Assembly (NCBI RefSeq): GCF_006714895.1
Contig: NZ_VFME01000001.1
Span: forward strand, 1,054,001 to 1,118,000
Direction: 5' to 3'
DNA: 64,000 bases
From: Gramella sp. Hel_I_59
Lineage (GTDB): Bacteria > Bacteroidota > Bacteroidia > Flavobacteriales > Flavobacteriaceae
Shown here piece after piece: positions 3,606-46,624 of this stretch (within the stretch, counting starts at the first letter, position 1; each line of letters begins with the position of its first letter). A model generated the notes under the pieces. That model had not been told where the DNA came from, did not search any database, and was given only the letters and a program-made list of their open reading frames with translations. Both the position numbers and the translations under genes were made by a program.

Positions 3606-3689
3606 TACCCGAGGCGGGACTTGAACCCGCACGCCCTAATGGACACATGGCCCTCAACCATGCCTGTCTACCAATTCCAGCACTCGGGT
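3606..3689 (-). tRNA. tRNA-Leu (anticodon GAG)
   Basis: The 84-base sequence folds as a class II tRNA with acceptor stem ACCCGAG/CTCGGGT, a long variable arm and a T arm with GGTTCAAGTCC. The anticodon loop TTGAGGG gives anticodon GAG, reading CUC/CUU leucine codons. No CCA is encoded. It is the last of three tRNAs on the minus strand. Confidence 0.95.
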
Positions 3690-3758
3690 GTGAGTTTATG
3701 GAAAGCTTCCATAAGGCTGGTCAACAAGTTCCGATAAAAAATCGGAGCGAGCAAATAG

Positions 3759-3831
3759 TGATCTGGCTGGGGCTCGAACCCAGGACCCTCTCCTTAAAAG
3801 GGAGATGCTCTACCAACTGAGCTACCAGATC
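3759..3831 (-). tRNA. tRNA-Lys (anticodon TTT), copy 1
   Basis: A 73-base cloverleaf with acceptor stem GATCTGG/CCAGATC, D arm GCTCAGTTGGTAGAGC and anticodon loop CTTTTAA (TTT, lysine). It is identical to the copy 27 bases upstream on the same strand. CCA is not encoded. Confidence 0.97.
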
Positions 3832-3858
3832 TTGAACAATAAAATAGGAACTTATTTG

Positions 3859-3931
3859 TGATCTGGCTGGGGCTCGAACCCAGGACCCTCTCCTTAAAAG
3901 GGAGATGCTCTACCAACTGAGCTACCAGATC
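3859..3931 (-). tRNA. tRNA-Lys (anticodon TTT), copy 2
   Basis: Identical in sequence to the neighbouring tRNA-Lys at 3759-3831, forming a tandem pair. It is promoter-proximal in the operon: the promoter at 3967-3996 reads into it. Confidence 0.97.
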
Positions 3932-12616: not shown

Positions 12617-13597
12617 ATGGATTACGCTGAGAATATATTAGGAACCATTGGGAATACTCCTATGGTTAAGATGAACAAGATCGTTGAGGATATCGATGCG
12701 CTTGTACTCGCAAAGTATGAAACCTTTAATCCCGGGAATTCGGTAAAGGATAGAATGGCTGTGAGAATGGTAGAAGACGCCGAAGCCAAAGGTTTATTAA
12801 AACCAGGAGGAACCATCATTGAAGGAACTTCAGGAAATACCGGAATGGGACTGGCACTTGCAGCGATCGTTAAAGGATATAAAATGATCTGCGTGATGAG
12901 TGACAAGCAGAGTAAGGAAAAAATGGATATTCTTCGTGCAGTTGGAAGTGAAGTGGTTGTTTGTCCTACAGATGTGGAACCAGATGATCCACAATCTTAT
13001 TATTCTACTTCCCGTAGACTTGCAGAAGAAACTCCGAATAGCTGGTATGTAAATCAATATGATAACCTCGCTAACCGAGAAGCTCATTACGAATCTACTG
13101 GACCTGAGATCTGGAAACAAACAGACGGGAAAGTTACCCATTTTGTTGTTGGAGTAGGGACTGGTGGAACTATTTCTGGAGTGGGAAAGTATTTGAAAGA
13201 AAAAAATCCCGATATTAAGGTTTGGGGAATAGATACCTACGGTTCAGTATTCAAGAAATATCACGAAACTGGTGAATTCGATGAAAAGGAGATCTATCCT
13301 TACGTGACCGAAGGAATTGGAGAGGATATTTTACCTAAGAACGTTGATTTTGATGTGATCGACGGTTTTACGAAGGTAACAGATAAAGATGCAGCCGTTT
13401 ATACCCAGAAATTATCCAAGGAAGAAGGATTTTTCTTAGGTAATAGTGCAGGTGCAGCGGTAAAAGGGCTGTTGCAACTAAAAGAACATTTTACTAAGGA
13501 TGATGTCGTGGTAGTGCTTTTCCATGACCACGGAAGCCGGTATGTAGGTAAAATGTATAATGATGACTGGATGAGAAAAATGGGTTACATCGACTAA
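12617..13597 (+). CDS. cysK: Cysteine synthase (PLP-dependent, CysK/CBS family)
   Basis: 326 residues. The fold-type II PLP enzyme joins sulfide to O-acetylserine to give cysteine, or acts as a cystathionine beta-synthase. The PLP lysine is K44 in NPGNSVKDRM; the substrate loop is EGTSGNTGMG, the phosphate-binding loop VGTGGTISGVGKYL, and the C-terminal PLP contact GNSAGAA. No CBS regulatory domain follows. The start is the ATG at 12617, since the longer frame begins in the promoter. The two activities cannot be separated by eye. Confidence 0.9.
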   Translation: MDYAENILGTIGNTPMVKMNKIVEDIDALVLAKYETFNPGNSVKDRMAVRMVEDAEAKGLLKPGGTIIEGTSGNTGMGLALAAIVKGYKMICVMSDKQSKEKMDILRAVGSEVVVCPTDVEPDDPQSYYSTSRRLAEETPNSWYVNQYDNLANREAHYESTGPEIWKQTDGKVTHFVVGVGTGGTISGVGKYLKEKNPDIKVWGIDTYGSVFKKYHETGEFDEKEIYPYVTEGIGEDILPKNVDFDVIDGFTKVTDKDAAVYTQKLSKEEGFFLGNSAGAAVKGLLQLKEHFTKDDVVVVLFHDHGSRYVGKMYNDDWMRKMGYID

Positions 13598-13635: not shown

Positions 13636-15741
13636 ATGACTAAGAATGCATGGTTTTTAACCAGTTTATTCTTTATGCTGACGCTCTCGATACATGCGCA
13701 GGATGATGAAAGGAAAGAATCAGATCTTAAAGTAACTTTAGATCTAAACAATCCTACCAGGGAGATCAATGATGGGGTCACCATGGTTAATGTTGAAGGA
13801 GGGAAAGCTCCTTACACTTATAAATGGACAAAGCAAAGCACTTCCCTTCAATCTAATAAATCCACAGGTATAACTGAAGGTCAGGAAGAATCGGTAACTG
13901 TGACCGATGCCAACGGAGTAAGTGTTACTAAAAAATTTAAAATACCTGCTGAAGCGATTACTGAAGTTGTAAACAGTAAGGTGCAGCCGGCAGTAGATTT
14001 TTTAGGCGGAATATTATTCTGGGATCCTTTTGCTGCAGTTGGGATCTACGACCCGGTAGTTTATACGAACGATAGAGAGATACCAATCCCGAACTGGGAT
14101 GCTACTACAAGTAAAACCTTCAGTTTAAAGCAATGGCTGGTTGAGGATGGTGGTCAGGTAGAAGCAGGTGATAAAATTGCTATTATAGAAAGTGAATCTG
14201 GAGAGGAGAAAGAGATCTTTTCAGAAGTTGACGGTACCATGAACTACCTGGTTCTGGAAGGCAACGAAATTTTCGACCCTAATGACCAGGATGATGTTAT
14301 TGAGCAAAATGCTCATATGATCGCCAAAATTGAATTCGACGAGCCTCAGCCTTTGCATCATCCCAATGGTAATGTGATCACTAACTCTATTCCTTTTATC
14401 GTGATCTGGCTTATTCTGGGAAGTATCTTCTTTACTATAAGACTTGGTTTCGTAAATATTCGTGGTTTTTCTCATTCTATTCAATTGGCCAAAGGGAAAT
14501 ACGACGATCCCGATGCTCCGGGTAGAATTACACATTTCCAGGCAATGGCTACTGCAGTTTCTGCAACCGTTGGTCTTGGGAATATAGCCGGTGTTGCGGT
14601 TGCAATTTCACTTGGTGGGGCCGGAGCAACTTTCTGGATGTTCTGTGCCGGATTCTTCGCGATGTCACTAAAGTTTACTGAGTGTACATTAGGGGTGAAA
14701 TATAGAGAGATCAACGAAGACGGTAGAATCTTTGGTGGACCTATGAATTATCTACGTTACGGCCTGGAGAAAAGAAATATGAAAGGTCTTGGGAAATTCC
14801 TTGCCAGCCTATTTGCAATATTAGGAGTTGGAGCTTCTTTTGGAGGTGGTAATATGATACAGTCCAACCAGGCATTTAAAATAGTTTCTGAACAATTACC
14901 TTTTCTGGAAGGTCAGGGATTCTTGTTTGGAGTTGGATTCGCCATCCTGGTTGGAGCGGTGATCCTTGGAGGAATTAATAGTATTGCCCGGGTAACTGGA
15001 AAAGTAGTACCTGTAATGGCGATTATCTATATCCTTGGTTGCGCAGTTGTGATCGGGGTGAATATTGAAAATATTGGCGCTGCATTTTCAGCGATTTATA
15101 ACGGAGCCTTTTCGGCAGATGCTCTAAAAGGTGGTTTTATCGGAGTTCTAATTGTTGGTCTGCAAAGAGCAGCATTTTCCAGTGAAGCCGGTGTTGGTTC
15201 AGCAGCTATCGCGCATAGTGCTACCAAAACCAATAATCCTATTGCAGATGGGTTTACTTCTTTAGTAGAACCTTTTATCGATACTATGGTCGTGTGTACT
15301 ATGACGGCATTGGTTCTTATTTTTACCGGAATGCATGAAGTAGGCGGTGGAATGAAAGGGGTTGAACTGACTTCAGATGCTTTTGGAAGCGTGATTTCCT
15401 GGTTCCCGGCAGTACTGGCACTTGCGGTTTTCTTATTTGCTTTTTCCACGATGGTTTCCTGGTCATATTACGGGATGCGTTCCTGGACCTATCTATTCGG
15501 GCAAAGCAAGAAATCTGAAATTATCTATAAAGTCCTGTTCCTGATATTCGTTGTCGTAGGAGCATCAGTAAGTCTTGGAGCAGTCTTAAGCTTCTCTGAT
15601 ATGATGATTCTCGCGATGTCATTTCCGAATATCATTGGATTATATATTATGTCTGCGGAAGTCAGAGCAGATATGGAAAATTACTGGGAGCGACTCAAAA
15701 ACGGAGAGTTGTTTATCAATCCTAAATTCAGAGATGCCTGA
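13636..15741 (+). CDS. AGCS sodium:amino-acid symporter with SprB-like and lipoyl-like N-terminal domains
   Basis: 701 residues from ATG 13636. A signal peptide (1-22, ending SIHAQ) is followed by a SprB-type repeat (about 35-95: GGKAPYTYKW and VTVTDANG). Next come an amphipathic stretch with ILFWDPFAAVGIYDP (124-140) and a lipoyl/biotinyl-like hairpin domain (about 148-235: WLVEDGGQVEAGDKIAIIES and EVDGTMNYLVLEGNEI). The AGCS transporter core begins at TM1 (252-270) and has [17 protein letters not shown]. The Lys that carries lipoate or biotin is replaced by Ser188. The core should import alanine- or glycine-type amino acids with Na+; the added domains would be periplasmic. A close paralogue lies at 19968. 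Confidence 0.9.
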   Translation: MTKNAWFLTSLFFMLTLSIHAQDDERKESDLKVTLDLNNPTREINDGVTMVNVEGGKAPYTYKWTKQSTSLQSNKSTGITEGQEESVTVTDANGVSVTKKFKIPAEAITEVVNSKVQPAVDFLGGILFWDPFAAVGIYDPVVYTNDREIPIPNWDATTSKTFSLKQWLVEDGGQVEAGDKIAIIESESGEEKEIFSEVDGTMNYLVLEGNEIFDPNDQDDVIEQNAHMIAKIEFDEPQPLHHPNGNVITNSIPFIVIWLILGSIFFTIRLGFVNIRGFSHSIQLAKGKYDDPDAPGRITHFQAMATAVSATVGLGNIAGVAVAISLGGAGATFWMFCAGFFAMSLKFTECTLGVKYREINEDGRIFGGPMNYLRYGLEKRNMKGLGKFLASLFAILGVGASFGGGNMIQSNQAFKIVSEQLPFLEGQGFLFGVGFAILVGAVILGGINSIARVTGKVVPVMAIIYILGCAVVIGVNIENIGAAFSAIYNGAFSADALKGGFIGVLIVGLQRAAFSSEAGVGSAAIAHSATKTNNPIADGFTSLVEPFIDTMVVCTMTALVLIFTGMHEVGGGMKGVELTSDAFGSVISWFPAVLALAVFLFAFSTMVSWSYYGMRSWTYLFGQSKKSEIIYKVLFLIFVVVGASVSLGAVLSFSDMMILAMSFPNIIGLYIMSAEVRADMENYWERLKNGELFINPKFRDA

Positions 15742-15766
15742 TAAGGCTTTTATTGAAAGATTTATA

Positions 15767-15796
15767 AAAACTCTTCCTTCTACGGAAGAGTTTTTT
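15767..15796 (+). terminator. Terminator of the first long AGCS gene
   Basis: AAAACTCTTCC - six-base loop - GGAAGAGTTTTTT, an 11-base stem followed by T run, 25 bases after the stop. It overlaps the last codons of the convergent gene ending at 15780. Confidence 0.85.
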
Positions 15797-16151
15797 GTTT
15801 CATATTACCAGATGCTTGTAAAAAGAGAAATAGAATAGCTCCTGAAAAATAGAGCAGAACATCAACAGGATCTGCAGTATATCTATCTACGAACTGCGGA
15901 AGTATTAATTCGAAATAAATAGCATAGAAAAAAGTAAGTGCGAGCGCTTGAGCAATACTTATTTTGACCGCTCTATCCTTAGTGAGGTAATGCACCGTTT
16001 TTAGACAAATAGTCAGAATGATAGGCATGCATAAAAAATCGTTGAGGTAGGATGTGGTCCATTCTGGAAAGTTCGCTCCAGTAAATTTTAGAGCTTCAAA
16101 TAGTATAAAGATCAGGACGAATAGTATAAAGCTGATGTTCAGTAATCTCAT
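15780..16151 (-). CDS. Small integral membrane protein, unknown function
   Basis: 123 residues with about four hydrophobic helices (4-25, 36-52, 68-86, 97-115). I do not recognise a characterised family; similar flavobacterial proteins are sometimes named magnesium-citrate transporter-like, without support visible here. Its ATG overlaps the stop of the upstream small gene by 4 bases, so the two are translationally coupled. Its 3' end lies in the terminator hairpin of the convergent AGCS gene. Confidence 0.7.
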   Translation of the reverse strand: MRLLNISFILFVLIFILFEALKFTGANFPEWTTSYLNDFLCMPIILTICLKTVHYLTKDRAVKISIAQALALTFFYAIYFELILPQFVDRYTADPVDVLLYFSGAILFLFLQASGNMKQKTLP

Positions 16152-16378
16152 AGAAGCGCAACAGATACTACAAAGGCGATTACAATGCCTATTCCAAGTA
16201 CAATAAGCCAGACTGTGTACCCGGTTTTGGCAAGGAAGCGTACAATAGGATTCTTATGTTCTTCTGCAGGTTCCGGTGCTGACTTTCGTTTATATTCTCC
16301 GGGTCTACGACTGGATTTTAGTTTAGTTTTCTTCGGATTTTTCTCCATGTTGTACTGCGCTTTCTCGATTAGTTCCAT
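16148..16378 (-). CDS. Small single-pass membrane protein, unknown function
   Basis: 76 residues. A strongly basic, Pro/Lys-rich N-terminal half (KNPKKTKLKSSRRPGEYKRK) precedes one C-terminal helix (about 54-75, YTVWLIVLGIGIVIAFVVSV). A shorter start at Met11 (MEKNPKK) is possible. No family recognised. It is coupled to the next membrane protein through a 4-base overlap, which supports that both are real genes. Confidence 0.65.
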   Translation of the reverse strand: MELIEKAQYNMEKNPKKTKLKSSRRPGEYKRKSAPEPAEEHKNPIVRFLAKTGYTVWLIVLGIGIVIAFVVSVALL

Positions 16379-16558
16379 TGCAGGAACTCAACTGCTGAAA
16401 TTCTATTGATCTTTAAATTGAATTCTAAGATAAAAAATCTGGACATCCATCCATTCCAATTAATGAAGCTTTATGAAAATCCTGAGTCTTCAGAATTATG
16501 CTGAATTCTATTTTAGAATAAATTTATATAAAGTATTTTCATTGCTGAAATTGAACTT

Positions 16559-17251
16559 ATGAAAAATCTATACTTTTTACTTTTAGCAATACTAATGGTA
16601 TCCTGCAATGCAACCATGGATACTACGAGTAACGAAACTCCGGAAAATCCCAAATATACTTACCTGGCACTCGGTGATTCTTATACAATAGGGGAGAGCG
16701 TTCGGGAAACTGAACGATGGCCGGTACAATTAACGGAGCAACTTCGAAATAGAAATTATGAGATGGCGGCGCCTATGATCATTGCAAAAACGGGATGGAC
16801 GACTTCAGATCTCTTGCGAGGAATGGACCAGAACCTGGAAGTGCAACGTGATTTTGACCTGGTTTCTATATTGATTGGGGTTAACAACCAATATCAGGGA
16901 AAACTTATTACAGAATATGAGGAAGAACTACGCCAGATTTTCAGGCGTGCGATCAATCATTCCAAAACACTTGAAAAAGGAGTTTTTGCTGTAAGTATTC
17001 CAGATTACGGTTATACACCTTTTGGATCTTCAAACCAGGAGAAAATAAGTGCTGAAATTGACAGGTTCAACCAGGTTTTTAAAAGAGTAGCAGATGAATT
17101 TGGAGTAGTGTTCTATAATATCACTCCAATTTCAAGAGATAGCAACAACCCTGAACTGGTAGCAAGTGATGGTTTGCATCCAAGTGCTTTACAGTATCAG
17201 CTTTGGGTAGAACAATACATTTCTCAGGTAGCAGAAAAATTACCTAATTAA
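16559..17251 (+). CDS. SGNH/GDSL-hydrolase lipoprotein
   Basis: 230 residues with lipobox LMVSC (Cys16). Block I is YLALGDSYTIGES with nucleophile S41, block III is IGVNNQYQG with the conserved Asn, and block V is SDGLHPS with the Asp/His pair. The fold hydrolyses esters of lipids, acetylated sugars or similar, outside the cytoplasm. The substrate cannot be predicted. It stands alone, 47 bases before the DUF2851 operon in the same orientation. Confidence 0.88.
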   Translation: MKNLYFLLLAILMVSCNATMDTTSNETPENPKYTYLALGDSYTIGESVRETERWPVQLTEQLRNRNYEMAAPMIIAKTGWTTSDLLRGMDQNLEVQRDFDLVSILIGVNNQYQGKLITEYEEELRQIFRRAINHSKTLEKGVFAVSIPDYGYTPFGSSNQEKISAEIDRFNQVFKRVADEFGVVFYNITPISRDSNNPELVASDGLHPSALQYQLWVEQYISQVAEKLPN

Positions 17252-17298
17252 TTTTTTAGCGCTTCATTTTCAAATGAATAATTTGATACATTCGGAGA

Positions 17299-18576
17299 GT
17301 GAAGGAAGACTTTCTTTATTATCTCTGGAAGTTTCAGAAGTTTGATTCCGAATGTCTTAGAACTTCGGAAGCTGAGCCTTTACAGATCATTTCGACCGGT
17401 GCTCAAAACAATTTATCCGGCCCCGATTTCTTCAATGCTCATTTAATAATCTCGGGCATCAAGTGGGCTGGCAATGTTGAGATGCATTTAAAATCATCAG
17501 ACTGGTACCTACATAATCATGAAACAGATCCTGCCTATGACAATGTAATTCTGCATGTGGTATGGGAACACGATGAAAATATCTTCCGAAGAGATCGTAG
17601 CCTTATACCAGTATTTGAACTAAAGAATATCGTCGATTATTCTATGATCGCAAAATACCGTCACCTGCTGGAAAGTCGTCATAATAGTATCAATTGTGAA
17701 GACAGTTTTTCAGAATTATCCAGTTTTGAGATCGATCACTGGTTTGAAAGACTATATTTTGAAAGACTTGAAAGAAAATCAGAACTGATATTTGCAGTAT
17801 TACAACGCTCCAACAATGATTGGAATAGGGCATGCATGATTCTGCTTTTTAGAGCATTCGGTTTAAATATTAATGGAGAGTACTTTTCCAACATGGCGGA
17901 AAATCTGAGCTATTCTCTGGTTGCAAAATTAGGTGGGAATCAGTTTTCTCTCGAAGCACTATTTTTGGGTTACTCCAATTTGATCCATGGAGCAGATCAG
18001 TATTCAAAGGAACTACTAACAGAATTCGAGTTTCTAAAACATAAGTTCAATATACCTTTGATCGATTCTAAACCAGAATTCTTCAGATTACGACCAGATA
18101 ATTTTCCTACAATAAGGCTGGCTCAGCTCGCAAGTTTGTATGCTCAGAGACCCTCATTTTTTTCAGGCATTATCGCAGCGAAAGATTTCAATGAAATAAA
18201 ATTCCTTTTTATTACTGAAGTTTCTGCTCACTGGAAGACTCACTATAATTTCGATAAATCACATAATTCCAGGTCAAAAAAATTAAGCAACTCTTTCTTA
18301 GAACTATTGGTGATCAATTTTGTAATCCCACTGAAATTTGCATTCTCAAAAAGTTCAGGAGAACCGGCGTCCAGTCTCTATGAGATAGTAACAAGCTTGA
18401 AAGCTGAAAAGAACTCAATTACTAGATTGTACAATAGTTTGAGACCTGGTACCGTAAAGAATGCACTGGAATCACAGGCAGTGCTTGAACTCAAAAAGAA
18501 CTACTGTAGCAAGTGTAGATGTTTGCACTGTGAATTAGGCGCGACATTATTGAGAAATTCTGTTAAATACGTTTAA
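17299..18576 (+). CDS. DUF2851 family protein
   Basis: 425 residues starting at GTG 17299, which gives the family's typical KEDFLYYLWKFQKFD N-terminus. DUF2851 proteins are widespread in Bacteroidota and have no known function. Near the C-terminus a CSKCRCLHC cluster (four Cys and one His) could bind metal. It is followed 9 bases later by the PspC-like gene and then the K+ channel, suggesting one transcript. No catalytic motif is recognised. Confidence 0.8.
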   Translation: MKEDFLYYLWKFQKFDSECLRTSEAEPLQIISTGAQNNLSGPDFFNAHLIISGIKWAGNVEMHLKSSDWYLHNHETDPAYDNVILHVVWEHDENIFRRDRSLIPVFELKNIVDYSMIAKYRHLLESRHNSINCEDSFSELSSFEIDHWFERLYFERLERKSELIFAVLQRSNNDWNRACMILLFRAFGLNINGEYFSNMAENLSYSLVAKLGGNQFSLEALFLGYSNLIHGADQYSKELLTEFEFLKHKFNIPLIDSKPEFFRLRPDNFPTIRLAQLASLYAQRPSFFSGIIAAKDFNEIKFLFITEVSAHWKTHYNFDKSHNSRSKKLSNSFLELLVINFVIPLKFAFSKSSGEPASSLYEIVTSLKAEKNSITRLYNSLRPGTVKNALESQAVLELKKNYCSKCRCLHCELGATLLRNSVKYV

Positions 18577-18585
18577 ATTTGTAAC

Positions 18586-18816
18586 ATGGCAGGAATGGTA
18601 TCGAACATGAGGCATTATCTCGAGAAGCACGGATTCTACGTATCCACCAGGATGGCAGATAAGATGGGAATTCGCGCAAAGAATGTTCGGTTATTCTTTA
18701 TATATGCAAGCTTTTTCACCATGGGTGCAGGCTTTATCGTATATCTGATCCTTGCTTTCTGGCTCAAACTTAAAGACCTAATCTACACTAAGAGAACCTC
18801 TGTATTCGATTTATGA
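18586..18816 (+). CDS. PspC-domain membrane protein
   Basis: 76 residues. An N-terminal segment (YLEKHGFYVSTRMADKMGIRAKNVRLFFIY) and one helix (about 45-63, FTMGAGFIVYLILAFWL) match the PspC domain of phage-shock or envelope-stress proteins. Its TGA overlaps the ATG of the potassium channel gene by 4 bases, so the two products are probably made together. PspC's partners PspA and PspB are not in the window. Confidence 0.78.
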   Translation: MAGMVSNMRHYLEKHGFYVSTRMADKMGIRAKNVRLFFIYASFFTMGAGFIVYLILAFWLKLKDLIYTKRTSVFDL

Positions 18817-19823
18817 GACAATTGATAGATTCCAGGATCAGGCTGGCCGTAGTATTGATTATTATGGTGTTCGTTACCGGAATCGTTGGTTTCAGGTTCT
18901 TATACGATTATACTTGGGTCGATGCGCTCTATATGACCATCATTACCGTAAGTACAGTAGGTTACGGGGAGGTTCAGCCTATGGGGGCTTACGGAAAATT
19001 ATTCACATCCTTTTTTATTATTTCCGGACTATTCATCTTTGGTTTCGGTCTCTCCACGATCACAGAACATATTCTGAATAAGAACAATATTGGTAATCTA
19101 AAACGTAATAAAATGAAGAAGAGGATAGACTCCCTAAACGATCATATCATTGTTTGCGGTTACGGTCAGAACGGAAAACAGGCAGTTCAGAAATTGCTGG
19201 ATTACCGAAAGAATTTCGTAATCATAGATGACCATGAGGAAGTCTTTCAGAATCTGGAAAATGACAGGCTTAATTATATTGTAGGAAATGCTACTGAAGA
19301 TGAGGTGCTAACCCTTGCCGGTGTGGAAAGAGCATCGACTTTAATTTGTGCACTACCCAGGGATGCGGATAACCTGTTCATCGTTCTTTCTGCAAGACAG
19401 TTGAAAAAGGATTTGAAGATTATTAGCAGAGCTACGGAAGAAAATAGTTATAAAAAATTGAAACTTGCCGGTGCAGATAATGTGATCATGCCAGATAGAA
19501 TAGGGGGGAGTCATATGGCTTCACTCGTAGTAGTTCCAGATCTGGTCGAATTTCTGGACAATCTTTCTGTTTCTGGCGAACAGGACAGTATCAATGTTGA
19601 ACAGGTCTCATTTTCCAAAATTTGCACAGATGGAGTGGAAAGGTCAATTTCTGAAACCGATATTCGGAAAAAAACCGGTTGCTCTGTTATTGGCTATAAA
19701 TCGCCGTCTGGAACCTATGTGGTAAACCCGGAACCATCTCAACGTATCGAGCGTGATTCTAAGTTGATTATGATTGGCAGACCCGATCAAATTGAGCACT
19801 TAAAAAAGTATTATTCGGTTTAG
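18813..19823 (+). CDS. Two-helix potassium channel with RCK (TrkA-N) domain
   Basis: 336 residues. TM1 is about 10-30, the pore loop with selectivity filter TVGYG is at 48-52, and TM2 at 64-85. A cytoplasmic RCK domain starts near 110 (HIIVCGYGQNGKQAV, a Rossmann nucleotide-binding motif; IIDDHEE) and is followed by a TrkA-C-like domain. The architecture is that of MthK/YugO-type ligand-gated K+ channels. Met101 just before the RCK domain could serve as an internal start for a free RCK subunit, as in MthK. Coupled to the PspC-like gene. Confidence 0.9.
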   Translation: MRQLIDSRIRLAVVLIIMVFVTGIVGFRFLYDYTWVDALYMTIITVSTVGYGEVQPMGAYGKLFTSFFIISGLFIFGFGLSTITEHILNKNNIGNLKRNKMKKRIDSLNDHIIVCGYGQNGKQAVQKLLDYRKNFVIIDDHEEVFQNLENDRLNYIVGNATEDEVLTLAGVERASTLICALPRDADNLFIVLSARQLKKDLKIISRATEENSYKKLKLAGADNVIMPDRIGGSHMASLVVVPDLVEFLDNLSVSGEQDSINVEQVSFSKICTDGVERSISETDIRKKTGCSVIGYKSPSGTYVVNPEPSQRIERDSKLIMIGRPDQIEHLKKYYSV

Positions 19824-19967
19824 AAATCGGACTTAAATTTTAATAAATGCTCCGTTTTCTTTAACATGACATTCACAATTTAACTACCAAAAGTTTGTTT
19901 TAGCCCAATTTTTTAGCATATTCACGCGCTGAAAATTTAACTTCATTATTAATAACCAAATTTCCAT

Positions 19968-22040
19968 ATGAGAAAGTATTTGCTTTCAATGTTCTTTTTA
20001 TTTTCGATTGTAGGACTATCTGCACAGGAACTAGACGTAAAAGCCCAGGTAGGAAACCCCTCCAAAGTAATAAATAATGGATTCATTGAACTGGATGTAA
20101 CAGGGGGAACTCCTCCTTACCAGTATAAATGGTCCAACCAGGGAACCAGCCTGGAATCTAATAAGACTGCAGGTCTTACAGAAGGTGTTCCTTACACGGT
20201 AGTAGTAACAGATGCTGCAGGAAACAAATTTGAAGGCGAGTACCAAGTAGAGGCAGAAGCTATCACCGAACACTTCAATGGAACTTTTTCTCCTATTGTT
20301 GCAAGTATGGGAAGCGTTCTTTTCTGGGATCCATTCACAGCTATGGGAGTTTACGATCCTGTTATTTATGCTGATATCAAAAGAATTGAAGCTCCAACCT
20401 GGAGTGCTTCTGAAGATGCTAAATTTGTACTTGAAGAATGGCTGGTGGAAGATGGCGAGCATGTGAACGAAGGAGATCCTATTGCAGTTGTTACCAAGAA
20501 TGGTGAAAGCATCGAAGTGCTTGCGAACGCTGATGGTACATTAGATCAATTTCAAGCTGAAGGTGAAGTAATCTACAATTCTGAAAATAAGCAACATGTT
20601 ATTGAGCAGGGAGCTCAATACTTTGGTAGCATTATATATGATGAGCCAGTAGCGCTTCTACATCCAAATGGAGACCCTCAAACTAAGAACATTCCATTTA
20701 TTGTGGTTTGGCTTGTATTGGGAGCATTGTTCTTCACGATCAGGTTAGGTTTTATCAATATTAGAGGTTTTAAACACTCTTTACAGTTAGCTAAAGGTAA
20801 ATATGACGATCCAAACGCTCCTGGACAGGTAACTCACTTCCAGGCTTTGGCGACAGCAGTTTCTGGGACTGTAGGTCTTGGGAATATTGCTGGTGTGGCA
20901 GTGGCGATCTCATTAGGAGGTGCCGGTGCAACCATGTGGATGATCCTTGCAGGACTTCTTGGAATGTCTTCCAAATTTGTGGAGTGTACTTTAGGTGTAA
21001 AATATAGATTTATTAATGCTGATGGTCGTGTATTTGGTGGTCCAATGAACTACCTGAGATATGGTCTTGAAAAAAGAAATAAAAGAGGTCTTGGTAAATT
21101 CCTTGCAGCATTTTTCGCGATACTTGCGATCGGTGCATCTTTTGGTGGCGGAAACATGTTCCAGGCGAACCAGTCTTTCTCTATTCTTGCTGGAGAATTT
21201 CCAATGCTGGAAGGAAACGGATTTATCTTTGGGATCGTAGTAGCAGTACTGGTAGGTATTGTAATTATTGGAGGTATTAGCAGTATTGCTAAGGTTACTG
21301 GTAAGATCGTACCAATTATGGCAGCAGTTTATGTACTGGGTGCTTTAGTGGTAATAGGTGTAAATATTGAAAATATTGGTCCTGCATTCACTGCGATCTG
21401 GGATGGAGCTTTTAATCCTAGTGCTCTTAAAGGAGGAGTTATTGGTGTTCTAATCGTTGGATTCCAGCGTGCGGCATTTTCCAATGAGGCTGGTGTAGGT
21501 TCCGCAGCGATTGCGCATAGTGCAGCTAAAACGAACCATCCTCCTTCTGAAGGTTTTGTAGCTCTTCTAGAGCCATTTATCGATACCGTAGTAGTTTGTA
21601 CGCTAACGGCATTAGTGTTGATCTTTACTGGAATGCATGAAGTAGAAGGTGTTGGAGGAGTAGAATTAACATCTAGTGCTTTTGGAAGTGTGATCTCATG
21701 GTTCCCATATGTTCTGGCAACTGCAGTATTCTTGTTCGCATTTTCTACAATGATCTCATGGTCTTATTATGGAATGAGAGCCTGGACTTACCTGTTTGGA
21801 AAAAGTAAAATAAACGAAATTATCTATAAAGTTTTATTCTTAATCTTTGTAGTAGTTGGAGCCTCAGTTAGTTTAGGAGCGGTGCTGGATTTCTCAGATA
21901 TGATGATCCTGGCTATGTCCTTCCCTAATATTATAGGTCTCTATATTATGATTGGAGAAGTAAGTAATGATCTTAAGGATTACTCTAAGAAGCTTAAAGC
22001 TGGAGAGTTATTCCATAAAACTGAAGAGCCAGCCGCCTAG
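19968..22040 (+). CDS. AGCS sodium:amino-acid symporter with SprB-like and lipoyl-like N-terminal domains (paralogue)
   Basis: 690 residues with the same domain order as the gene at 13636. There is a signal peptide (1-20, ending GLSAQ), a SprB-like repeat (about 25-95: [26 protein letters not shown]), and [15 protein letters not shown] (117-131). A lipoyl-like domain follows (about 155-225: [20 protein letters not shown] and [16 protein letters not shown]). The eleven-helix AGCS core starts with [21 protein letters not shown]. Aligned with lipoyl domains, the modified Lys is Gly179. The two cores are nearly collinear, so they arose by duplication after the fusion. The HHH gene follows 12 bases later. 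Confidence 0.9.
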
Positions 22041-22052
22041 GCCCTCTCTAGT

Positions 22053-22916
22053 ATGAAATTACTAAAATCCCATTTTGCGCTTTCAAGAAGTCAGCAGAAT
22101 GGGATTTTTGTTTTGGTCCTGGTCATAATCATCCTGCAGTTGATTCTCTTCGGAAGTGATTATATCTCTAAAGATAGCATACCGGTAAATGATGAGAAAC
22201 TTCAGAAATTCCAGAGTCAGTTAGATTCTATCCGTAAGCTGAAACCTAAGATGAAGGATACCATCTATCCTTTCAATCCAAATTATTTGTCAGATTTCAA
22301 AGCATACCAGATAGGATTGAGCGTAGAAGAGATCGATAAATTATTGAAGTACCGGGCAACCAATAAATGGATTAACTCTGCTGAAGATTTCCAGAGGGTT
22401 ACAGGAGTAAGTGATAGTTTGATGATGATCATAAAGCCATCTTTTCGATTCCCTGAATGGGTTAAGAACTCCGGGAAGCTTCAGAAACCCATAACAGGAA
22501 AGGCTGAAGTGATTTCGATTGCCGACCTTAATACTGTTTCTGCTGAAGATCTTCAGGTTGTAAATGGAATTGGTGAAAAACTTTCAGAGAGGATCGTGAA
22601 ATACAGAAACAGGATTGGCGGTTTTCTTTCCGAAGAACAATTGAAGGATGTGTATGGATTAAGTCCTGAAGTGATCGCCAGGATCAGTGAAAAGTTCCAG
22701 GTTATCAATAAACCACAGGTAATCCTCCAGAATATAAATTCCATCACAGAAGCTGAACTTGCAGAATTGCCATATTTTAATCCTGCTCTGGCCAAGAAAA
22801 TTATAAATCACAGAACCATGAATGAAGGGATTCGGTCTTTTGAAGAATTGACAAAAATCAGTGGTTTTCCTTCCGATAAAATCGACAGAATTAAATTATA
22901 TTTGTCAGTACAGTGA
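22053..22916 (+). CDS. Membrane-anchored helix-hairpin-helix (ComEA-like) protein
   Basis: 287 residues. One N-terminal helix (about 16-34, GIFVLVLVIIILQLILF) anchors it; the rest contains four HhH-type units (for example LNTVSAEDLQVVNGIGEKLSERIVKYR, split here by IGEKL) of the ComEA kind that bind DNA without sequence preference. ComEA is a DNA-uptake receptor, but Bacteroidota carry several such proteins of unknown role, some fused to other modules. It lies 12 bases downstream of the second long AGCS gene and may be cotranscribed. Confidence 0.8.
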   Translation: MKLLKSHFALSRSQQNGIFVLVLVIIILQLILFGSDYISKDSIPVNDEKLQKFQSQLDSIRKLKPKMKDTIYPFNPNYLSDFKAYQIGLSVEEIDKLLKYRATNKWINSAEDFQRVTGVSDSLMMIIKPSFRFPEWVKNSGKLQKPITGKAEVISIADLNTVSAEDLQVVNGIGEKLSERIVKYRNRIGGFLSEEQLKDVYGLSPEVIARISEKFQVINKPQVILQNINSITEAELAELPYFNPALAKKIINHRTMNEGIRSFEELTKISGFPSDKIDRIKLYLSVQ

Positions 22917-27055: not shown

Positions 27056-27129
27056 GCCGATGTAGCTCAGCTGGCTAGAGCAGCTGATTTGTAATCAGCA
27101 GGTCGTGGGTTCGAGTCCCTCCATCGGCT
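27056..27129 (+). tRNA. tRNA-Thr (anticodon TGT)
   Basis: A 74-base cloverleaf with acceptor GCCGATG/CATCGGC, anticodon loop TTTGTAA (TGT) and T arm GGGTTCGAGTCCC. It is identical to the copy at 46551. First of four tRNAs leading to tuf, with spacers of 138-202 bases. Confidence 0.97.
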
Positions 27130-27331
27130 CTTGAAATACTGAAAACACCGAAGTTTCTGTAGAACTTTCAAGTTTAAATCATTGCTGATGAATAGCTTGC
27201 AAAAAAACTGACAGAAATTTTAAAAAATGCTTTGGATGGTGCTGTAAAATTACTTTAATTTGCAGCCGTTAAAAAAACCATTATAAGCTAAGCTGTTTCA
27301 GTAATGGTTCTATGAAATAGTGGTAATTATT

Positions 27332-27413
<82 letters not shown>

Positions 27414-27551
27414 CAAAGGTTTTAAATGAAGCTGTTGTCTAAAGCTTGCTTTTGAAAGACAGTAATTTTAAAATCGAAGTTCGGGGCCACCCGAACAGGA
27501 TCATCGAGCAAAAGCGAGATAATCCTAAAGGTGAAAGTCTAAAATGGTAAT

Positions 27552-27624
27552 GCGGGAGTAGCTCAGTTGGTAGAGCGTCAGCCTTCCAAGCTGAATGTCG
27601 CCGGTTCGAACCCGGTCTCCCGCT
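27552..27624 (+). tRNA. tRNA-Gly (anticodon TCC)
   Basis: A 73-base cloverleaf with acceptor GCGGGAG/CTCCCGC and anticodon loop CTTCCAA (TCC). The spacer before it contains the hairpin GTTCGGG/CCCGAAC near 27480, perhaps a processing site. Confidence 0.96.
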
Positions 27625-27780
27625 CTAAATTTAATTGAATCAGGATTTATCCGGTCACTAGAACCGACTTTTATCGGTTTACTCATAAAGAGTTAAAATG
27701 ACTGAAGTACCTCGAGCCTGATCTTTTCCATAAGCCTGATAGGTTTATGGATATCGCTGTTTAAAACAGTCAATTGTCTG

Positions 27781-27852
27781 GCCGACGTAGCTCAGGGGTA
27801 GAGCGTTTCCTTGGTAAGGAAGAGGTCACGGGTTCAATTCCCGTCGTTGGCT
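27781..27852 (+). tRNA. tRNA-Thr (anticodon GGT)
   Basis: A 72-base cloverleaf with acceptor GCCGACG/CGTTGGC (one G-T pair) and anticodon loop TTGGTAA (GGT). It ends 57 bases before tuf. Confidence 0.96.
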
Positions 27853-27909
27853 CTAGTTTTGTATAAAATTGAACACTAATATATAACTAAGATTAAATAA
27901 GTATTAATT

Positions 27910-29097
27910 ATGGCAAAGGAAACTTACGATCGTTCCAAACCGCACCTAAATATTGGTACAATTGGACACGTAGATCACGGAAAAACTACTTTAACTGCAG
28001 CTATTACTAAAGTAATGGCTGATGCTGGATATTCAGAAGCTAGTGCGTTTGATCAAATTGACAACGCTCCTGAAGAAAAGGAAAGAGGTATTACAATTAA
28101 CTCTTCTCACGTTGAGTACTCAACAGCTAACCGTCACTACGCTCACGTTGACTGTCCTGGTCACGCCGATTACGTAAAGAACATGGTAACTGGTGCTGCT
28201 CAAATGGACGGTGCTATTCTTGTTGTGGCTGCGACTGATGGTCCTATGCCTCAAACTCGTGAGCACATCCTTCTTGGACGCCAGGTAGGTATTCCAAGAA
28301 TCGTTGTATTCTTGAATAAAGTTGACCTTGTAGATGATGAGGAACTTCTTGAACTAGTTGAAATGGAAGTAAGAGATCTTCTTTCTTTCTACGAGTATGA
28401 TGGTGATAATGGTCCTGTAATTTCAGGTTCTGCACTTGGAGCGCTAGAAGGAGATGAGAAATGGTCTAAGACTGTTCTTGATCTTATGGAAGCGGTTGAT
28501 AGCTGGATTGAACTTCCAGAACGTGATGTTGATAAGCCTTTCTTGATGCCTATCGAAGATGTATTCTCTATTACAGGTCGTGGTACAGTTGCAACTGGAC
28601 GTATCGAAACAGGTGTTGCAAACACTGGAGATCCTGTAGAGATCATTGGTATGGGAGCTGGAAAACTTACTTCTACTATTACTGGAGTTGAAATGTTCCG
28701 TAAGATTCTTGATAGAGGTGAAGCTGGTGATAACGTAGGTATCCTACTAAGAGGAATTGAGAAGTCTCAAATTTCTAGAGGTATGGTAATTACTAAGCCA
28801 GGATCTGTAACTCCACACGCTAAATTCAAAGCTGAGGTTTACATCCTTAAGAAAGAAGAAGGTGGACGTCACACTCCATTCCATAATAACTACCGTCCAC
28901 AGTTCTACGTACGTACAACTGATGTAACAGGAACAATCAACCTTCCTGATGGTGTAGAAATGGTAATGCCAGGTGATAACCTTACTATTACTGTTGAACT
29001 TATTCAGCCAATCGCAATGAATACTGGTCTACGTTTCGCAATTCGTGAAGGTGGTAGAACTGTAGGTGCTGGACAGGTAACTGAAATTCTAGACTAA
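27910..29097 (+). CDS. tuf: Elongation factor Tu
   Basis: 395 residues. GTPase motifs GHVDHGKTT (near residue 19), DCPGHADY and NKVD are intact, followed by domains 2 and 3 ([38 protein letters not shown]). It delivers aminoacyl-tRNA to the ribosome. Strong use of codons such as CGT, GGT and CTT marks high expression. The tRNA-tRNA-tuf-trnW-secE arrangement is the standard one in the phylum. Confidence 0.99.
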
Positions 29098-29115
29098 GAA
29101 TTTTCAATATATAAA

Positions 29116-29144
29116 AAGGTATCCCGTGACAAGCGGGATACCTT
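29116..29144 (+). terminator. Stem-loop after tuf
   Basis: AAGGTATCCCG - TGACAAG - CGGGATACCTT is a perfect 11-base stem 18 bases after the tuf stop. There is no T run behind it, so partial termination or mRNA end protection/processing before tRNA-Trp is likelier than full termination. Confidence 0.6.
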
Positions 29145-29155
29145 CACTTATATTT

Positions 29156-29228
29156 ACGGGTTTAGCTCAGTTGGTAGAGCACTGGTCTCCAAAACCAGGT
29201 GTCGGGAGTTCGAGCCTCTCAACCCGTG
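29156..29228 (+). tRNA. tRNA-Trp (anticodon CCA)
   Basis: A 73-base cloverleaf with acceptor ACGGGTT/AACCCGT and anticodon loop CTCCAAA (CCA). It sits between tuf and secE, as in most Bacteroidota. Confidence 0.97.
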
Positions 29229-32264: not shown

Positions 32265-32338
32265 ATTTTGCGTATATAGAACTCAACGTTTAACAAGCGC
32301 ACTATTTTTTATATAATAAATTATAATCCCGTCCATTG

Positions 32339-35300
32339 ATGTTAGCAAAGCAAACTGAAAGATTGAGTTTCTCTTCTGTTAAGAACAAGCCTGCTTATCC
32401 GGACTTTCTGGATCTGCAGATTAAGTCTTTTCAGGACTTCTTTCAATTAGAGACAAAATCAGAAGCGCGGGGAAATGAAGGTCTTTACAACACCTTCCTA
32501 GAAAACTTCCCCATTACGGACACCCGTAATCAATTTGTACTAGAATTCTTAGATTATTTTGTGGACCCACCAAGATACTCCATCCAGGAATGTATCGAAC
32601 GTGGATTGACCTACAGTGTACCACTTAAGGCTAGACTTAAATTATACTGTACCGACCCTGAACACGAAGATTTTGAAACAATCGTACAGGACGTATACTT
32701 GGGAACTATCCCATATATGACACCTAGTGGAACTTTCTGCATTAACGGTGCTGAACGAGTAGTAGTTTCTCAGCTACACCGTTCTCCAGGGGTTTTCTTT
32801 GGACAATCTTTCCATGCAAATGGAACAAAACTTTATTCTGCCCGTGTAATTCCTTTCAAAGGATCATGGATAGAATTTGCGACCGATATCAATAGCGTTA
32901 TGTACGCTTATATTGACCGTAAGAAAAAATTACCTGTAACAACTCTTTTCCGTGCAATCGGGTTTGAGCGTGATAAGGATATCCTTGAAATCTTCGACCT
33001 TGCGGAAGAAGTGAAGGTGTCTAAAACAGGACTAAAAAAATACCTTGGTCGTAAATTAGCGGCTAGAGTACTTAATACATGGTACGAAGATTTCGTAGAT
33101 GAAGATACTGGTGAAGTTGTTTCTATCGAGCGTAACGAAATTGTTCTTGACCGTGATACTGAACTTGAAAAAGATCACATAGAAGAAATTCTTGAAACCG
33201 GATCTAAGACTATCCTACTTCACAAGGAGGATAACCAGACTGGTGATTATGCGATCATTCACAATACATTACAAAAAGATCCTACTAACTCTGAAAAAGA
33301 GGCAGTAGAACATATCTACCGTCAGCTTCGTAATGCTGAACCGCCAGATGAGGAAACTGCTCGTGGAATTATCGACAAGCTTTTCTTCTCAGATCAGCGT
33401 TACAGCCTTGGAGAAGTTGGTAGATATAGAATGAACAAAAAACTTGGTCTTGAAGTTGAAATGGATAAGCAAGTGCTTACCAAATTAGACATCATTACCA
33501 TTGTAAAATATCTTATCGAGCTTATTAACTCTAAAGCTGAGATTGATGATATTGATCACTTATCTAACCGTCGTGTTAGAACTGTAGGTGAGCAATTATC
33601 TCAGCAGTTCGGTGTTGGTCTTGCACGTATGGCAAGAACAATTCGTGAGAGAATGAACGTTCGTGATAACGAGGTGTTTACTCCAATCGATTTGATCAAT
33701 GCGAAGACATTATCTTCTGTGATCAACTCATTCTTTGGAACAAACCAGTTATCTCAGTTCATGGACCAGACGAACCCTCTTGCAGAAATCACGCACAAAC
33801 GTAGACTTTCAGCATTAGGACCAGGTGGTTTATCAAGAGAAAGAGCAGGGTTCGAGGTACGTGATGTGCACTATACTCACTACGGAAGACTTTGTCCTAT
33901 TGAAACTCCTGAGGGACCAAACATTGGTCTTATTTCATCACTTTCGGTTTATGCTAAAGTAAACGGAATGGGATTCATTGAAACACCTTATAGAAGTGTT
34001 ACTGATGGTAAGATAAATATTTCCGAAGAGCCTATTTATTTAAGTGCTGAAGAGGAAGAAGGTAAAAAAATTGCTCAGGCTAACATTCCATTGAAGGATG
34101 ATGGTACTATAAATACTGATCGTGTAATTGCACGAATGGAAGGTGACTTCCCGGTTGTAGATCCAAATGAGATCCACTATACCGATGTTGCACCAAACCA
34201 GATATCATCAATCTCTGCATCTCTTATTCCATTCTTGGAACATGATGATGCCAACCGTGCGTTGATGGGATCAAACATGATGCGTCAGGCTGTACCACTT
34301 TTAAGAACAGATTCTCCTATCGTTGGAACTGGACTTGAAAGACAGGTAGCAACAGACTCTCGTGTATTGATCAATGCCGAAGGTGAAGGAGAGGTTGAGT
34401 ATGTTGATGCAAACAAGATTGTGATCAAGTACGATCGTACGGATGAAGCAAGAATGGTAAGTTTTGATGATGATTCAAAATCTTATAATCTTATCAAATT
34501 CCGTAAAACTAACCAGGGATCCTGTATCAACCTGAAACCAATCGTTAGTGTTGGGGACAGAGTTACTAAAGGACAGGTTCTTTGCCAGGGTTATGCAACC
34601 GAAGAAGGTGAGCTGGCACTTGGTAGAAACATGAAGGTTGCCTTCATGCCTTGGAAAGGTTATAACTTTGAGGATGCGATCGTAATTTCAGAAAAAGTGG
34701 TAAGAGATGATATTTTCACCTCTATCCATATTGATGAGTACTCTCTTGAAGTTAGAGATACAAAACTGGGTAACGAAGAATTGACAAATGATATTCCTAA
34801 TGTTTCTGAAGAGGCTACTAAAGACCTTGATGAGCACGGAATGATTAGAGTTGGTGCTGAAGTAAAGCCTGGTGATATTCTTATTGGTAAGATCACTCCT
34901 AAAGGAGAAAGTGATCCTACGCCAGAAGAAAAATTATTACGTGCAATCTTTGGTGACAAAGCTGGTGATGTAAAGGATGCTTCTCTTAAAGCTTCTCCAT
35001 CGCTAAGTGGTGTTGTTATCAATAAGAAATTGTTCGCAAGAGCGATTAAGGACAAACGTAAGAGAGCTCAGGATAAAGAAGATGTTGCTGCATTAGAGAA
35101 AAAGTATGATGCTAAATTCGCTAATTTAAAAGCTGAACTTATCGAGAAGCTATTCGCCATTATAGGTGGAAAGACTGCTCAGGGAGTACAGAATGATCTT
35201 GGTGAAGAAGTAATGCCGAAAGGTAAGAAGTACACTCTTAAGATGCTTAACGCTGTAGACGATTATGCTCACTTAACTACGGGTACATGGACTACAGATG

Positions 35301-36151
35301 ATCATCTTAACGAACTTGTAGCTGATCTTTTACATAATTATAAAATCAAGGAGAACGATCTTCAGGGTAACCTTAGAAGAGAGAAATTCACCATATCTGT
35401 TGGAGATGAACTTCCATCAGGAATTCTTAAACTGGCTAAAGTTTATATCGCTAAGAAGCGTAAACTTAAAGTAGGGGATAAGATGGCAGGACGTCACGGT
35501 AACAAAGGTATTGTTGCGAGAATCGTTCGTCAGGAAGATATGCCATTCCTTGAGGACGGAACACCAGTGGATATCGTGTTGAACCCACTTGGGGTACCAT
35601 CACGTATGAACATTGGACAGATCTACGAAACAGTTCTTGGATGGGCTGGACAGAAGAACGGGAAGAAGTACGCAACACCAATTTTTGATGGTGCTACTAT
35701 TGAAGAGATCAATGATCTAACCGACAAAGCTGGAATACCTAGATACGGTCATACTTATCTTTATGATGGTGGAACCGGGGAAAGATTTGACCAGCGTGCA
35801 ACTGTTGGTGTGATCTACATGCTAAAACTTGGTCATATGATCGACGATAAAATGCATGCTCGTTCTATTGGACCATACTCACTTATTACTCAGCAGCCGC
35901 TTGGTGGTAAGGCACAATTTGGTGGTCAGAGATTTGGAGAGATGGAGGTTTGGGCTCTTGAAGCTTACGGAGCATCTAGTACTCTAAGAGAAATTCTAAC
36001 AGTGAAGTCTGATGACGTTATTGGAAGAGCTAAGACTTACGAGGCTATTGTGAAGGGTGAGCCAATGCCGGAACCAGGATTGCCGGAATCTTTCAACGTA
36101 CTTATGCACGAATTGAAAGGTCTAGGTTTGGATATTAAACTTGAAGAATAA
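32339..36151 (+). CDS. rpoB: RNA polymerase beta subunit
   Basis: 1270 residues from ATG 32339 (an in-frame TTG lies just before). The rifampicin-binding segment reads [20 protein letters not shown], with the usual wild-type residues at the common resistance positions; later motifs include [12 protein letters not shown] and the C-terminal [13 protein letters not shown]. Length is typical for Bacteroidota. It forms the catalytic core with beta'. rpoC begins 72 bases later. Confidence 0.99.
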
Positions 36152-36165
36152 CATTCTGTTTTTAC

Positions 36166-36185
36166 CGGGACGTTACGGCGTCCCG
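36166..36185 (+). terminator. Hairpin between rpoB and rpoC
   Basis: CGGGACG - TTACGG - CGTCCCG, a perfect 7-base GC-rich stem with a short TTT behind. It may pause polymerase or protect mRNA ends; it is unlikely to stop rpoC transcription. Confidence 0.45.
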
Positions 36186-36223
36186 TTTAAACTGAATATT
36201 CACAATAATTAGCAGCAGTTATT

Positions 36224-39200
36224 ATGGCTAGAAATAATGATAAAAATACAGTACAGAGGTTTAACCAGATCTCTATAGGTTTAGCTTCTCCAGAGTCCAT
36301 CCTTGCGGAATCTCGTGGTGAAGTTCTTAAGCCTGAAACGATCAATTACCGTACGCACAAACCAGAGCGTGACGGTTTGTTCTGTGAGCGTATTTTTGGT
36401 CCTGTAAAGGATTATGAGTGTGCCTGTGGAAAATACAAAAGAATCCGATACAAAGGAATCGTTTGTGACCGTTGTGGTGTGGAAGTTACAGAGAAAAAGG
36501 TTCGTAGAGATCGTGTAGGTCACATCAACCTTGTAGTACCTGTAGCACATATCTGGTATTTCCGTTCTTTACCTAACAAAATTGGTTATTTGCTAGGTCT
36601 GCCGTCTAAAAAACTTGATATGATCATCTACTACGAAAGATATGTAGTGATCCAGGCAGGTAATGCGACAGATGAAGAAGGAAAAGCTTTACAAAAAATG
36701 GACTTCCTTACTGAAGAAGAATATCTAAATATTTTAGATGAACTTCCTCAGGAGAACCAATATCTGGACGATAGCGATCCAAATAAATTTATCGCTAAAA
36801 TGGGAGCTGAATGTCTAATCGAGATTCTTAAGAGAATCGATCTTGACGAGCTTTCATATGAACTAAGACACAAAGCGAATAACGAAACTTCAAAGCAACG
36901 TAAAACTGAAGCACTTAAACGTCTTCAGGTTGTGGAAGCTTTCCGTGATGCGAACAAGAACAGAGAGAACAATCCAGAGTGGATGATCATGAAAGTTGTG
37001 CCGGTAATTCCGCCAGAACTTAGACCTTTGGTGCCTCTTGACGGTGGTCGTTTTGCGACTTCAGATTTAAATGATCTTTACCGTCGTGTGATTATTCGTA
37101 ACAATCGTTTGAAGAGATTAATGGAGATCAAAGCTCCTGAAGTGATCTTACGTAATGAAAAACGTATGCTTCAGGAATCTGTAGATTCATTATTTGATAA
37201 TACAAGAAAATCTTCAGCAGTAAAAACTGACTCTAACCGTCCTCTTAAATCACTTTCAGATTCATTGAAAGGTAAGCAGGGACGTTTCCGTCAGAACTTA
37301 CTTGGTAAGCGTGTGGATTATTCAGCACGTTCTGTAATCGTTGTAGGACCAGAACTTAAAATGTTTGAGTGTGGTCTTCCGAAGAATATGGCAGCTGAGC
37401 TTTACAAGCCTTTTATCATCAGAAAACTGATAGAAAGAGGTATTGTAAAAACAGTGAAGTCTGCGAAGAAGATCATAGACAAAAAAGAACCTGTAGTTTG
37501 GGACATTCTGGAAAATGTGCTTAAAGGGCATCCGGTACTATTAAACCGTGCTCCTACACTTCACCGTCTGGGAATCCAGGCATTCCAGCCTAAACTTATT
37601 GAAGGTAAGGCAATTCAGCTTCACCCACTTGCATGTACTGCATTCAACGCCGATTTCGATGGTGACCAGATGGCAGTTCATTTACCACTTGGGCCTGAGG
37701 CTATCTTGGAGGCACAGTTATTAATGCTTGCTTCTCATAATATATTGAACCCTGCAAATGGTTCTCCAATTACAGTACCTTCTCAGGATATGGTCTTGGG
37801 TCTTTACTACATGACCAAACATAAGATTGGTACGAAAGAGGAGCCGGTAAAAGGTGAAGGACTTACATTCTATTCTGCGGAAGAGCTAGTTATTGCTTAC
37901 AACCAGAAGCGTGTAGACCTTAATGCAGGTATTAAGATTAGAACTAAAGATTTCAACGAAGCAGGAGAATTGGTCATGATGATCAAGGATACCACTGTTG
38001 GTAGAGTATTATTTAATGAAGCTGTTCCTGAAAAGGCTGGTTATATTAATGAAGTACTTACTAAGAAATCACTTCGTGAGATCATTGGTAATATTCTAAG
38101 AATTACTAGTGTTCCGGAAACTTCAGAATTCCTTGATGAGATCAAAGGTCTTGGATATGGATTCGCTTTCCGTGGTGGACTTTCCTTCAGTTTAGGTGAT
38201 ATTATTATCCCTGAAGAGAAGCAATCCATGATTGATGAAGCTAACGAACAGGTTGAAGGTATTATAGGAAACTATAACATGGGTCTTATAACCAACAACG
38301 AACGTTACAATCAGGTAATTGATATCTGGACTTCTACTAACGCAGGTCTTACAGACCTAGCCATGAAGCGTATTCGTGAAGACAAGCAAGGGTTTAACTC
38401 TGTGTATATGATGCTTGATTCTGGTGCGCGTGGTTCGAAGGAACAGATTCGTCAGTTAACCGGTATGCGTGGATTGATGGCTAAGCCTAAGAAATCCAAC
38501 TCTGGTGGTGGTGAAATTATTGAAAACCCGATTCTTTCTAACTTTAAGGAAGGTCTTTCAATTCTTGAATACTTTATCTCCACTCACGGTGCTCGTAAAG
38601 GTCTTGCCGATACAGCACTGAAAACTGCCGATGCTGGTTACTTAACCCGTCGTCTGGTAGATGTTTCACAGGATGTAATTGTTAATGAAGATGATTGTGG
38701 AACTTTAAGAGGTGTCGAAGTTAAGCCACTTAAAAAGAATGAAGAGATTGTAGAATCATTAGGAGAGAGAATCCTTGGACGTATTTCTCTACATGATGTA
38801 GTAAATCCTTCTACAGAAGAACTTATCGTTGGAACGAACGAAGAGATTACTGAAGAAATTGTAGCTAAGATCGAAGCTGCGCCAATCGAAGGTGTTGAAG
38901 TACGTTCACCACTTACCTGTGAGGCGAAGAAAGGGATCTGTATCAAGTGTTACGGTAGAAACCTTGCAACTAACAAGATCGTACAAACAGGTGAAGCTGT
39001 TGGTGTTGTTGCTGCACAATCTATTGGAGAACCTGGTACACAGCTTACACTACGTACATTCCACGTTGGAGGTATTGCAGGTAACATTTCTGAAGACAAT
39101 AAGCTTGAAGCAAGATTTGATGGTGTTGCAGAGATCGAAGATCTAAAAGTTGTTAAAGGTGAAGCCCCTGATGGTGGAACTGCAGACATCGTGATCTCTC

Positions 39201-46550: not shown

Positions 46551-46624
46551 GCCGATGTAGCTCAGCTGGCTAGAGCAGCTGATTTGTAATCAGCAGGTCG
46601 TGGGTTCGAGTCCCTCCATCGGCT
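46551..46624 (+). tRNA. tRNA-Thr (anticodon TGT), second copy
   Basis: Identical over 74 bases to the tRNA at 27056. Its 3' end and the terminator behind it are duplicated 103 bases downstream (see the repeat entry). Confidence 0.97.

Follow-up and report, generated by a model that had tools for sequence, protein, structure and literature searches.

The window analysed here, a 64,000-nucleotide stretch of the Gramella sp. Hel_I_59 genome, contains two genes encoding predicted AGCS amino-acid symporters, P1 and P2, that display an additional head in front of the first transmembrane segment (TM1). The P1 gene (13636..15741, plus strand; delimited by translation and Pfam, with the start placed by agreement with orthologues) encodes a 701 aa protein with a signal peptide recognised by eye (residues 1–22, 13636..13701), a SprB-type beta domain seen by Pfam and in the structure model (28–103, 13717..13944), a pre-TM1 helix with an LFWDPF segment, which is the best conserved part of the head (104–141, 13945..14058), a lipoyl/biotinyl-like insert with Ser188/Gly189 at the lysine site (142–239, 14059..14352) and the AGCS core (253–690, 14392..15705). 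The P2 gene (19968..22040), like all parts of P1 on the plus strand, encodes a 690 aa protein with the same succession of elements: signal peptide, again by eye (1–20, 19968..20027), SprB-type beta domain by Pfam and model (21–94, 20028..20249), helix and LFWDPF segment (95–131, 20250..20360), lipoyl/biotinyl-like insert with Gly179 at the lysine site (132–230, 20361..20657) and AGCS core (243–680, 20694..22007). In P1 and P2, respectively, the LFWDPF motif begins at residues 127 and 118, YDPV at 138 and 129, and IPFIV, the first core residues, at 252 and 242. An AGCS family search of the 3.44 Mb single-contig genome returned three genes, all within the window; the third, P3 (41477..42844, minus strand), is an ordinary paralogue that has none of the head parts in its translation or Pfam matches. 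Among the matches listed, Christiangramia records are the nearest named relatives, and P1 is 99% identical to a protein of an uncultured Christiangramia metagenome-assembled genome (MAG).

Both cores are readily recognised by Pfam (E-values of 1.2e-116 for P1 and 2e-122 for P2), with PF01235/TIGR00835 scores of 390.7/378.2 bits for P1 and 409.7/391.9 bits for P2 that exceed the curated cut-offs of 24 and 272.65. P2 clears the Pfam cut-offs for SprB (PF13573; 31.4 bits against 28) and for Biotin_lipoyl (27.3 against 22.1), whereas P1 reaches 19.3 bits for SprB and narrowly misses with 21.1 for Biotin_lipoyl. As a correction, both P1 domain scores thus fall below the Pfam curated score in the whole-protein scan. 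In a PF00364 search of the own genome both inserts pass, with scores of 31.3 and 24.7 bits. At E 1e-3, a SprB match was found in 24 of the 26 members of alignment A3 and a Biotin_lipoyl match in 17 (9 missed). Within the family to which the window belongs, a search at E 1e-20 gave a match in 55 of 299 genomes, the whole extension being present at 58 places in 49 genomes (nine with two copies) and the first part only in six. Given these match rates and the matches to the extension model across the family sample, the head domains are not chance. The architecture proposed by the earlier note, a signal peptide, SprB-type domain, LFWDPF segment and lipoyl-like domain before a full AGCS core in both genes, is borne out by translation and Pfam; a head of SprB-type domain, LFWDPF helix and lysine-less lipoyl-type insert on an intact core is very probably correct.

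The hairpin fold that the earlier note expected from structure prediction was seen in P2, where both the model and a fold search identify a lipoyl-type barrel-sandwich hairpin. The lipoyl fold search was performed with P2, and the P1 assignment comes from the DSSP pattern of its model together with 37% identity to the P2 insert; the whole-chain fold search of P1 covered the core only, and the SprB-type domain was barely covered. The core displays a LeuT-like fold, as in the solved AgcS, and the alignment to LeuT (7dix) begins at P1 residue 295, after TM1. Since the N-terminus of LeuT is cytoplasmic, TM1 would run from outside to inside and the head would be periplasmic. In the P1 model a helix spans residues 5–23, matching the signal-peptide region, and a signal-like start was also seen by eye in 18 of 25 headless Bacteroidota rows (the exceptions being L183 and the six short L191–L196). 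The head should therefore lie on the periplasmic side, as previously suggested, in view of the by-eye signal peptide and the LeuT alignment. The N-termini of two clostridial AGCS proteins, L047 and L074, show a lipoprotein-type signal by eye (FVGC and LTGC), and in L047 the pre-TM1 helix is preceded by about 130 additional residues, a head of another type, which fits an outside N-terminus.

Lipoyl/biotinyl carrier domains (PF00364; 9yx0, 1ghj, 3crk) share the fold of the P1 and P2 inserts; the inserts differ in that nearly all are devoid of the modifiable lysine, lie by inference in the periplasm and are placed inside a membrane transporter. The hairpin tip lacks the modifiable lysine that defines such carriers, and its only conserved feature is a common glycine. 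The aligned column holds Gly179 in P2 and, depending on the placement of a one-residue difference, Ser188 or Gly189 in P1. Over 95 inserts, from a set of 97 long proteins in which the search pattern missed L142 and L143, it holds lysine in 2 and glycine in 54. As controls we used six strong PF00364 matches from five proteins of the same genome, one of which was mis-cut; the five correctly cut domains all keep the lysine. The loss reported by the earlier note is thereby confirmed, as is Gly179 in P2, while its Ser188 in P1 becomes Ser188 or Gly189. That the domain is lipoylated or biotinylated, which only the fold favours, is highly improbable: the aligned lysine is absent in 93 of the 95 inserts, although a lysine within one residue in 29 of them leaves some slight room through alignment error. 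Besides, lipoyl and biotin attachment enzymes are cytosolic, and a signal peptide would remove the domain from them. The head is not a cofactor carrier.

The position of the lipoyl-like domain is best defined by relatives that do not have it. P3, which was used for this comparison in the earlier note, shares 38% identity with P1 when the two are aligned. In five family members (L147–L151, frames of 607–614 residues) the SprB-type domain and the segment are present without a lipoyl-like part, and YDPVVY or its equivalent passes through HPNG or NPNG into TM1. A further SprB-only protein (L152) is cut by a contig end, and 13 more occur in other families of the order. The SprB-only Flavobacteriales proteins (L147–L151, L222–L234) resemble P1 and P2 in the SprB-type domain, LFWDPF-type segment, core, signal-like start and mostly similar neighbours, and differ by the missing insert. 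In the Perlabentimonas protein L041 (54% identical), which has neither SprB nor lipoyl-like domain, the LFWDP segment runs nearly directly into TM1. As the YDPVVY-type segment is joined to TM1 in the SprB-only relatives, the roughly 95 residues of the lipoyl-like part were cleanly inserted; the earlier claim of an insertion between LFWDP and TM1 holds, with cleaner proof than P3 affords. The same pre-TM1 loop holds about 80 unrelated residues in L184, whose close relative L182 has no insert. This insert occurs in 2 of 249 family genomes, L184 (G226) and L211 (G577), at 45% identity between the two; neither gives a confident Pfam match, the single L184 match being at E 0.024, under the cut-off. 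L182, L184 and L211 also share an extra acidic stretch after TM1 with TLYGD, TLYGE or TLYAD motifs, on a side inferred to be cytoplasmic.

The search for this architecture across Bacteroidota, advised by the earlier note, retrieved the whole extension in 8 of 395 genomes, all of the window's family. In the order sample a match was found in 23 of 196 genomes, corresponding to 9 whole extensions, 13 SprB-only proteins and 1 broken gene; the Bacteroidota, family and order samples overlap in part. Core trees were built from a 133-row set, from which 72 rows were picked by hand; 23 were then dropped and 18 added, giving 67 rows (38 with the lipoyl-like insert, 18 SprB-only and 11 with neither, including L184 and L211 with the other insert). 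Both trees exclude L152, L153 and L216/L221. In the 67-row tree the SprB-only proteins branch off one after another, in several groups, outside a 37-row lipoyl-bearing clade (support 96/83), some of the inner branches being weak (e.g. 88/62, 86/49). This comparison shows that the head was built stepwise, with the SprB-type domain and helix first and the lipoyl-like module later. The P1-type proteins form one clade (100/100) nested within the P2-type proteins, so P1 is the duplicate, and P2 the copy at the conserved locus. L040, an insert-bearing protein from a Crocinitomicaceae MAG, branches deeper than the main lipoyl clade; L040 and L041 are long branches. In the 72-row tree, a single clade of all 53 lipoyl bearers including L040 was rejected (approximately unbiased test, p-AU 0.001), and single clades of the SprB-only proteins (p 0.196) or of the SprB bearers (p 0.191) were not, these tests predating the addition of the 13 SprB-only rows from the order sample. 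Transfer by recombination may also have played a part in the insert's history.

Among 40 clostridial loci (L044–L083), absent from the trees, no lipoyl-like or SprB domain was found in the N-termini read by eye. P1-type copies from Brumimicrobium aurantiacum (L019, Crocinitomicaceae) and Profundicola (L025, Weeksellaceae) group within Flavobacteriaceae, pointing to transfer or to wrongly labelled records. A P2 orthologue, L153 (G400:C21:53000-66000), is split into two frames of 373 and 322 residues, a pseudogene or a sequencing error, and the headed AGCS gene L216/L221 (G686:C1) has its frame broken inside the lipoyl-like region.

P1 lies downstream of a gene for a pyridoxal phosphate (PLP) enzyme (12617..13597, plus strand) resembling cysteate synthase or cystathionine beta-synthase; its best scores, 462.7 bits for the former (cut-off 600) and 414 for the latter (cut-off 510), are below both cut-offs, and its substrate might hint at the cargo of P1. 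Alanine, glycine or glutamine is the cargo of the AGCS members characterised so far, the family being defined by Na+- or H+-coupled uptake. Glutamine is the substrate given for the AGCS protein GutA of C. jejuni (PMC12795558). P1 follows the PLP enzyme in six genera (Christiangramia, Haloflavibacter, Salegentibacter, Mesonia, Zunongwangia and Psychroflexus) and sits elsewhere in Aequorivita, Winogradskyella and others. Around P2-type genes recur DUF2851 (17299..18576, plus strand), in part a potassium channel gene, a ComEA-like helix-hairpin-helix protein (22053..22916, plus strand, 12 bases after P2) and an acyl-CoA dehydrogenase; 15 of 18 order loci have a relative of the ComEA-like protein close to the P2-type gene. 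This comparison relies on matches to relatives of window genes, so that neighbours absent from the window would not show.

The earlier note suggested that the domains could gate substrate access or dock the importer to an envelope partner, the latter as in efflux adaptors, in which a lysine-less lipoyl-type domain lies on the periplasmic side. P1 and P2 share this feature with AcrA, HlyD and BesA, but they are attached to an importer, and no alpha-hairpin between the lipoyl halves is present in the secondary structure of either model. Nine window neighbours were scanned without finding any outer-membrane family, and the frame at 15780–16151 had no match at all. At least one of DUF2851, the helix-hairpin-helix protein and the acyl-CoA dehydrogenase was found at 18 of 19 SprB-only loci (none at L148), as at lipoyl-bearing P2-type loci, although in several SprB-only loci of other families the neighbours are missing or inverted and the dehydrogenase matches are only 33–37% identical. 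Since loci that have the insert and loci that lack it share most of their neighbours, no neighbour tracks the insert. At the 13 P1 loci away from the PLP locus (12 places, L010 and L155 being on the same contig; flanking frames of at least 120 aa, up to 8 kb per side), no flanking family recurs in more than four. A fixed neighbour partner was thus rejected on the gene neighbourhoods of P2-type, SprB-only and P1 loci, partners encoded elsewhere being outside this scope. As variation is greatest in the lipoyl module and at its tip, and related proteins have no such module, docking to an outer-membrane or periplasmic partner appears unlikely.

Conservation is uneven along the head. Mean pairwise identities for P1-type/P2-type proteins (15 and 10 rows, 25 of the 28 in alignment A1, leaving L040, L041 and P3 out) are 0.85/0.86 in the core, 0.77/0.70 in the helix and LFWDPF segment, 0.62/0.59 in the pre-TM1 part, 0.53/0.61 in the SprB-type domain and 0.40/0.47 in the lipoyl-like domain. 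The lipoyl module is the least conserved folded part, and within the head conservation is highest in the segment linking it to the membrane. We propose that P1 and P2 import amino acids as AGCS-type transporters and bear an accessory periplasmic head: the conserved helix would lie on the outer face of the core and hold the head there, and the head would most likely modulate the transporter from outside, by stabilising it or by shaping substrate access to the outward-open site, the lipoyl-like module being a fast-evolving add-on rather than an essential contact. We give this reading a probability of about 0.5. Several points weigh against it. The domain orientation is unsure (the extension-only P2 model has a predicted template modelling score of 0.46), the core is partly poorly modelled (P1 residues 496–522 with a predicted local distance difference test score below 50), and the topology is drawn from the by-eye signal peptide and the LeuT-fold alignment. 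The helix and LFWDPF segment are well modelled with the core (P1) and poorly without it (P2), weak evidence as the comparison spans different proteins and alignments. Finally, with L040 outside the main clade, the insert was either gained twice or gained once early and then lost several times, the tree requiring two changes or more.

The low conservation of the lipoyl-like module, its absence from related proteins with shared neighbours and the different insert in the same loop of L184 and L211 would also fit a pre-TM1 loop that simply tolerates insertions, the module being nearly neutral, kept by descent and at most a spacer. Yet the module has stayed in open frame in both paralogues and across a clade of 37 tree rows, and all 23 extensions of alignment A2 share the P1 residues L164, W167 and A182, albeit L217 has Tyr at the Trp position; a mere passenger is possible but doubtful. 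More speculative still, and improbable, is that the loop is a flavobacterial hot spot for grafted periplasmic sensing or gating domains, the head binding an envelope ligand or substrate to set activity. We know of no such outside control layer for LeuT-fold importers.

Compared with known systems, AgcS of Methanococcus maripaludis (PDB 6cse; AGCS, TC 2.A.25) has, when aligned with P1, only 16 residues before the equivalent of P1-TM1 and hence no room for a head. The first domain resembles the gliding-adhesin SprB repeat in sequence, over the Pfam cut-off in P2, but is single on a transporter, whereas one 1876-residue frame elsewhere in this genome contains many matches; because of this single copy on a membrane transporter, a role as part of a type IX-secreted gliding adhesin is unlikely. 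This architecture is not described among the literature matches listed. The usual view of LeuT-fold importers is that of a bare membrane core. In the present case the lipoyl fold is reused without its lysine on an importer, and the close natural variants with SprB alone or the full head, mostly with shared neighbours, together with the AGCS proteins that have the other insert, offer a ready comparison for the effect of a grafted domain on a symporter.

At gathering cut-offs, Rfam returned only nine tRNAs in the whole window, with no riboswitch upstream. The tRNA genes lie in three groups (3606–3931, 27056–29228 and 46551–46624), and two very long adjacent open frames of 1271 and 1433 aa occupy 32336–40525.

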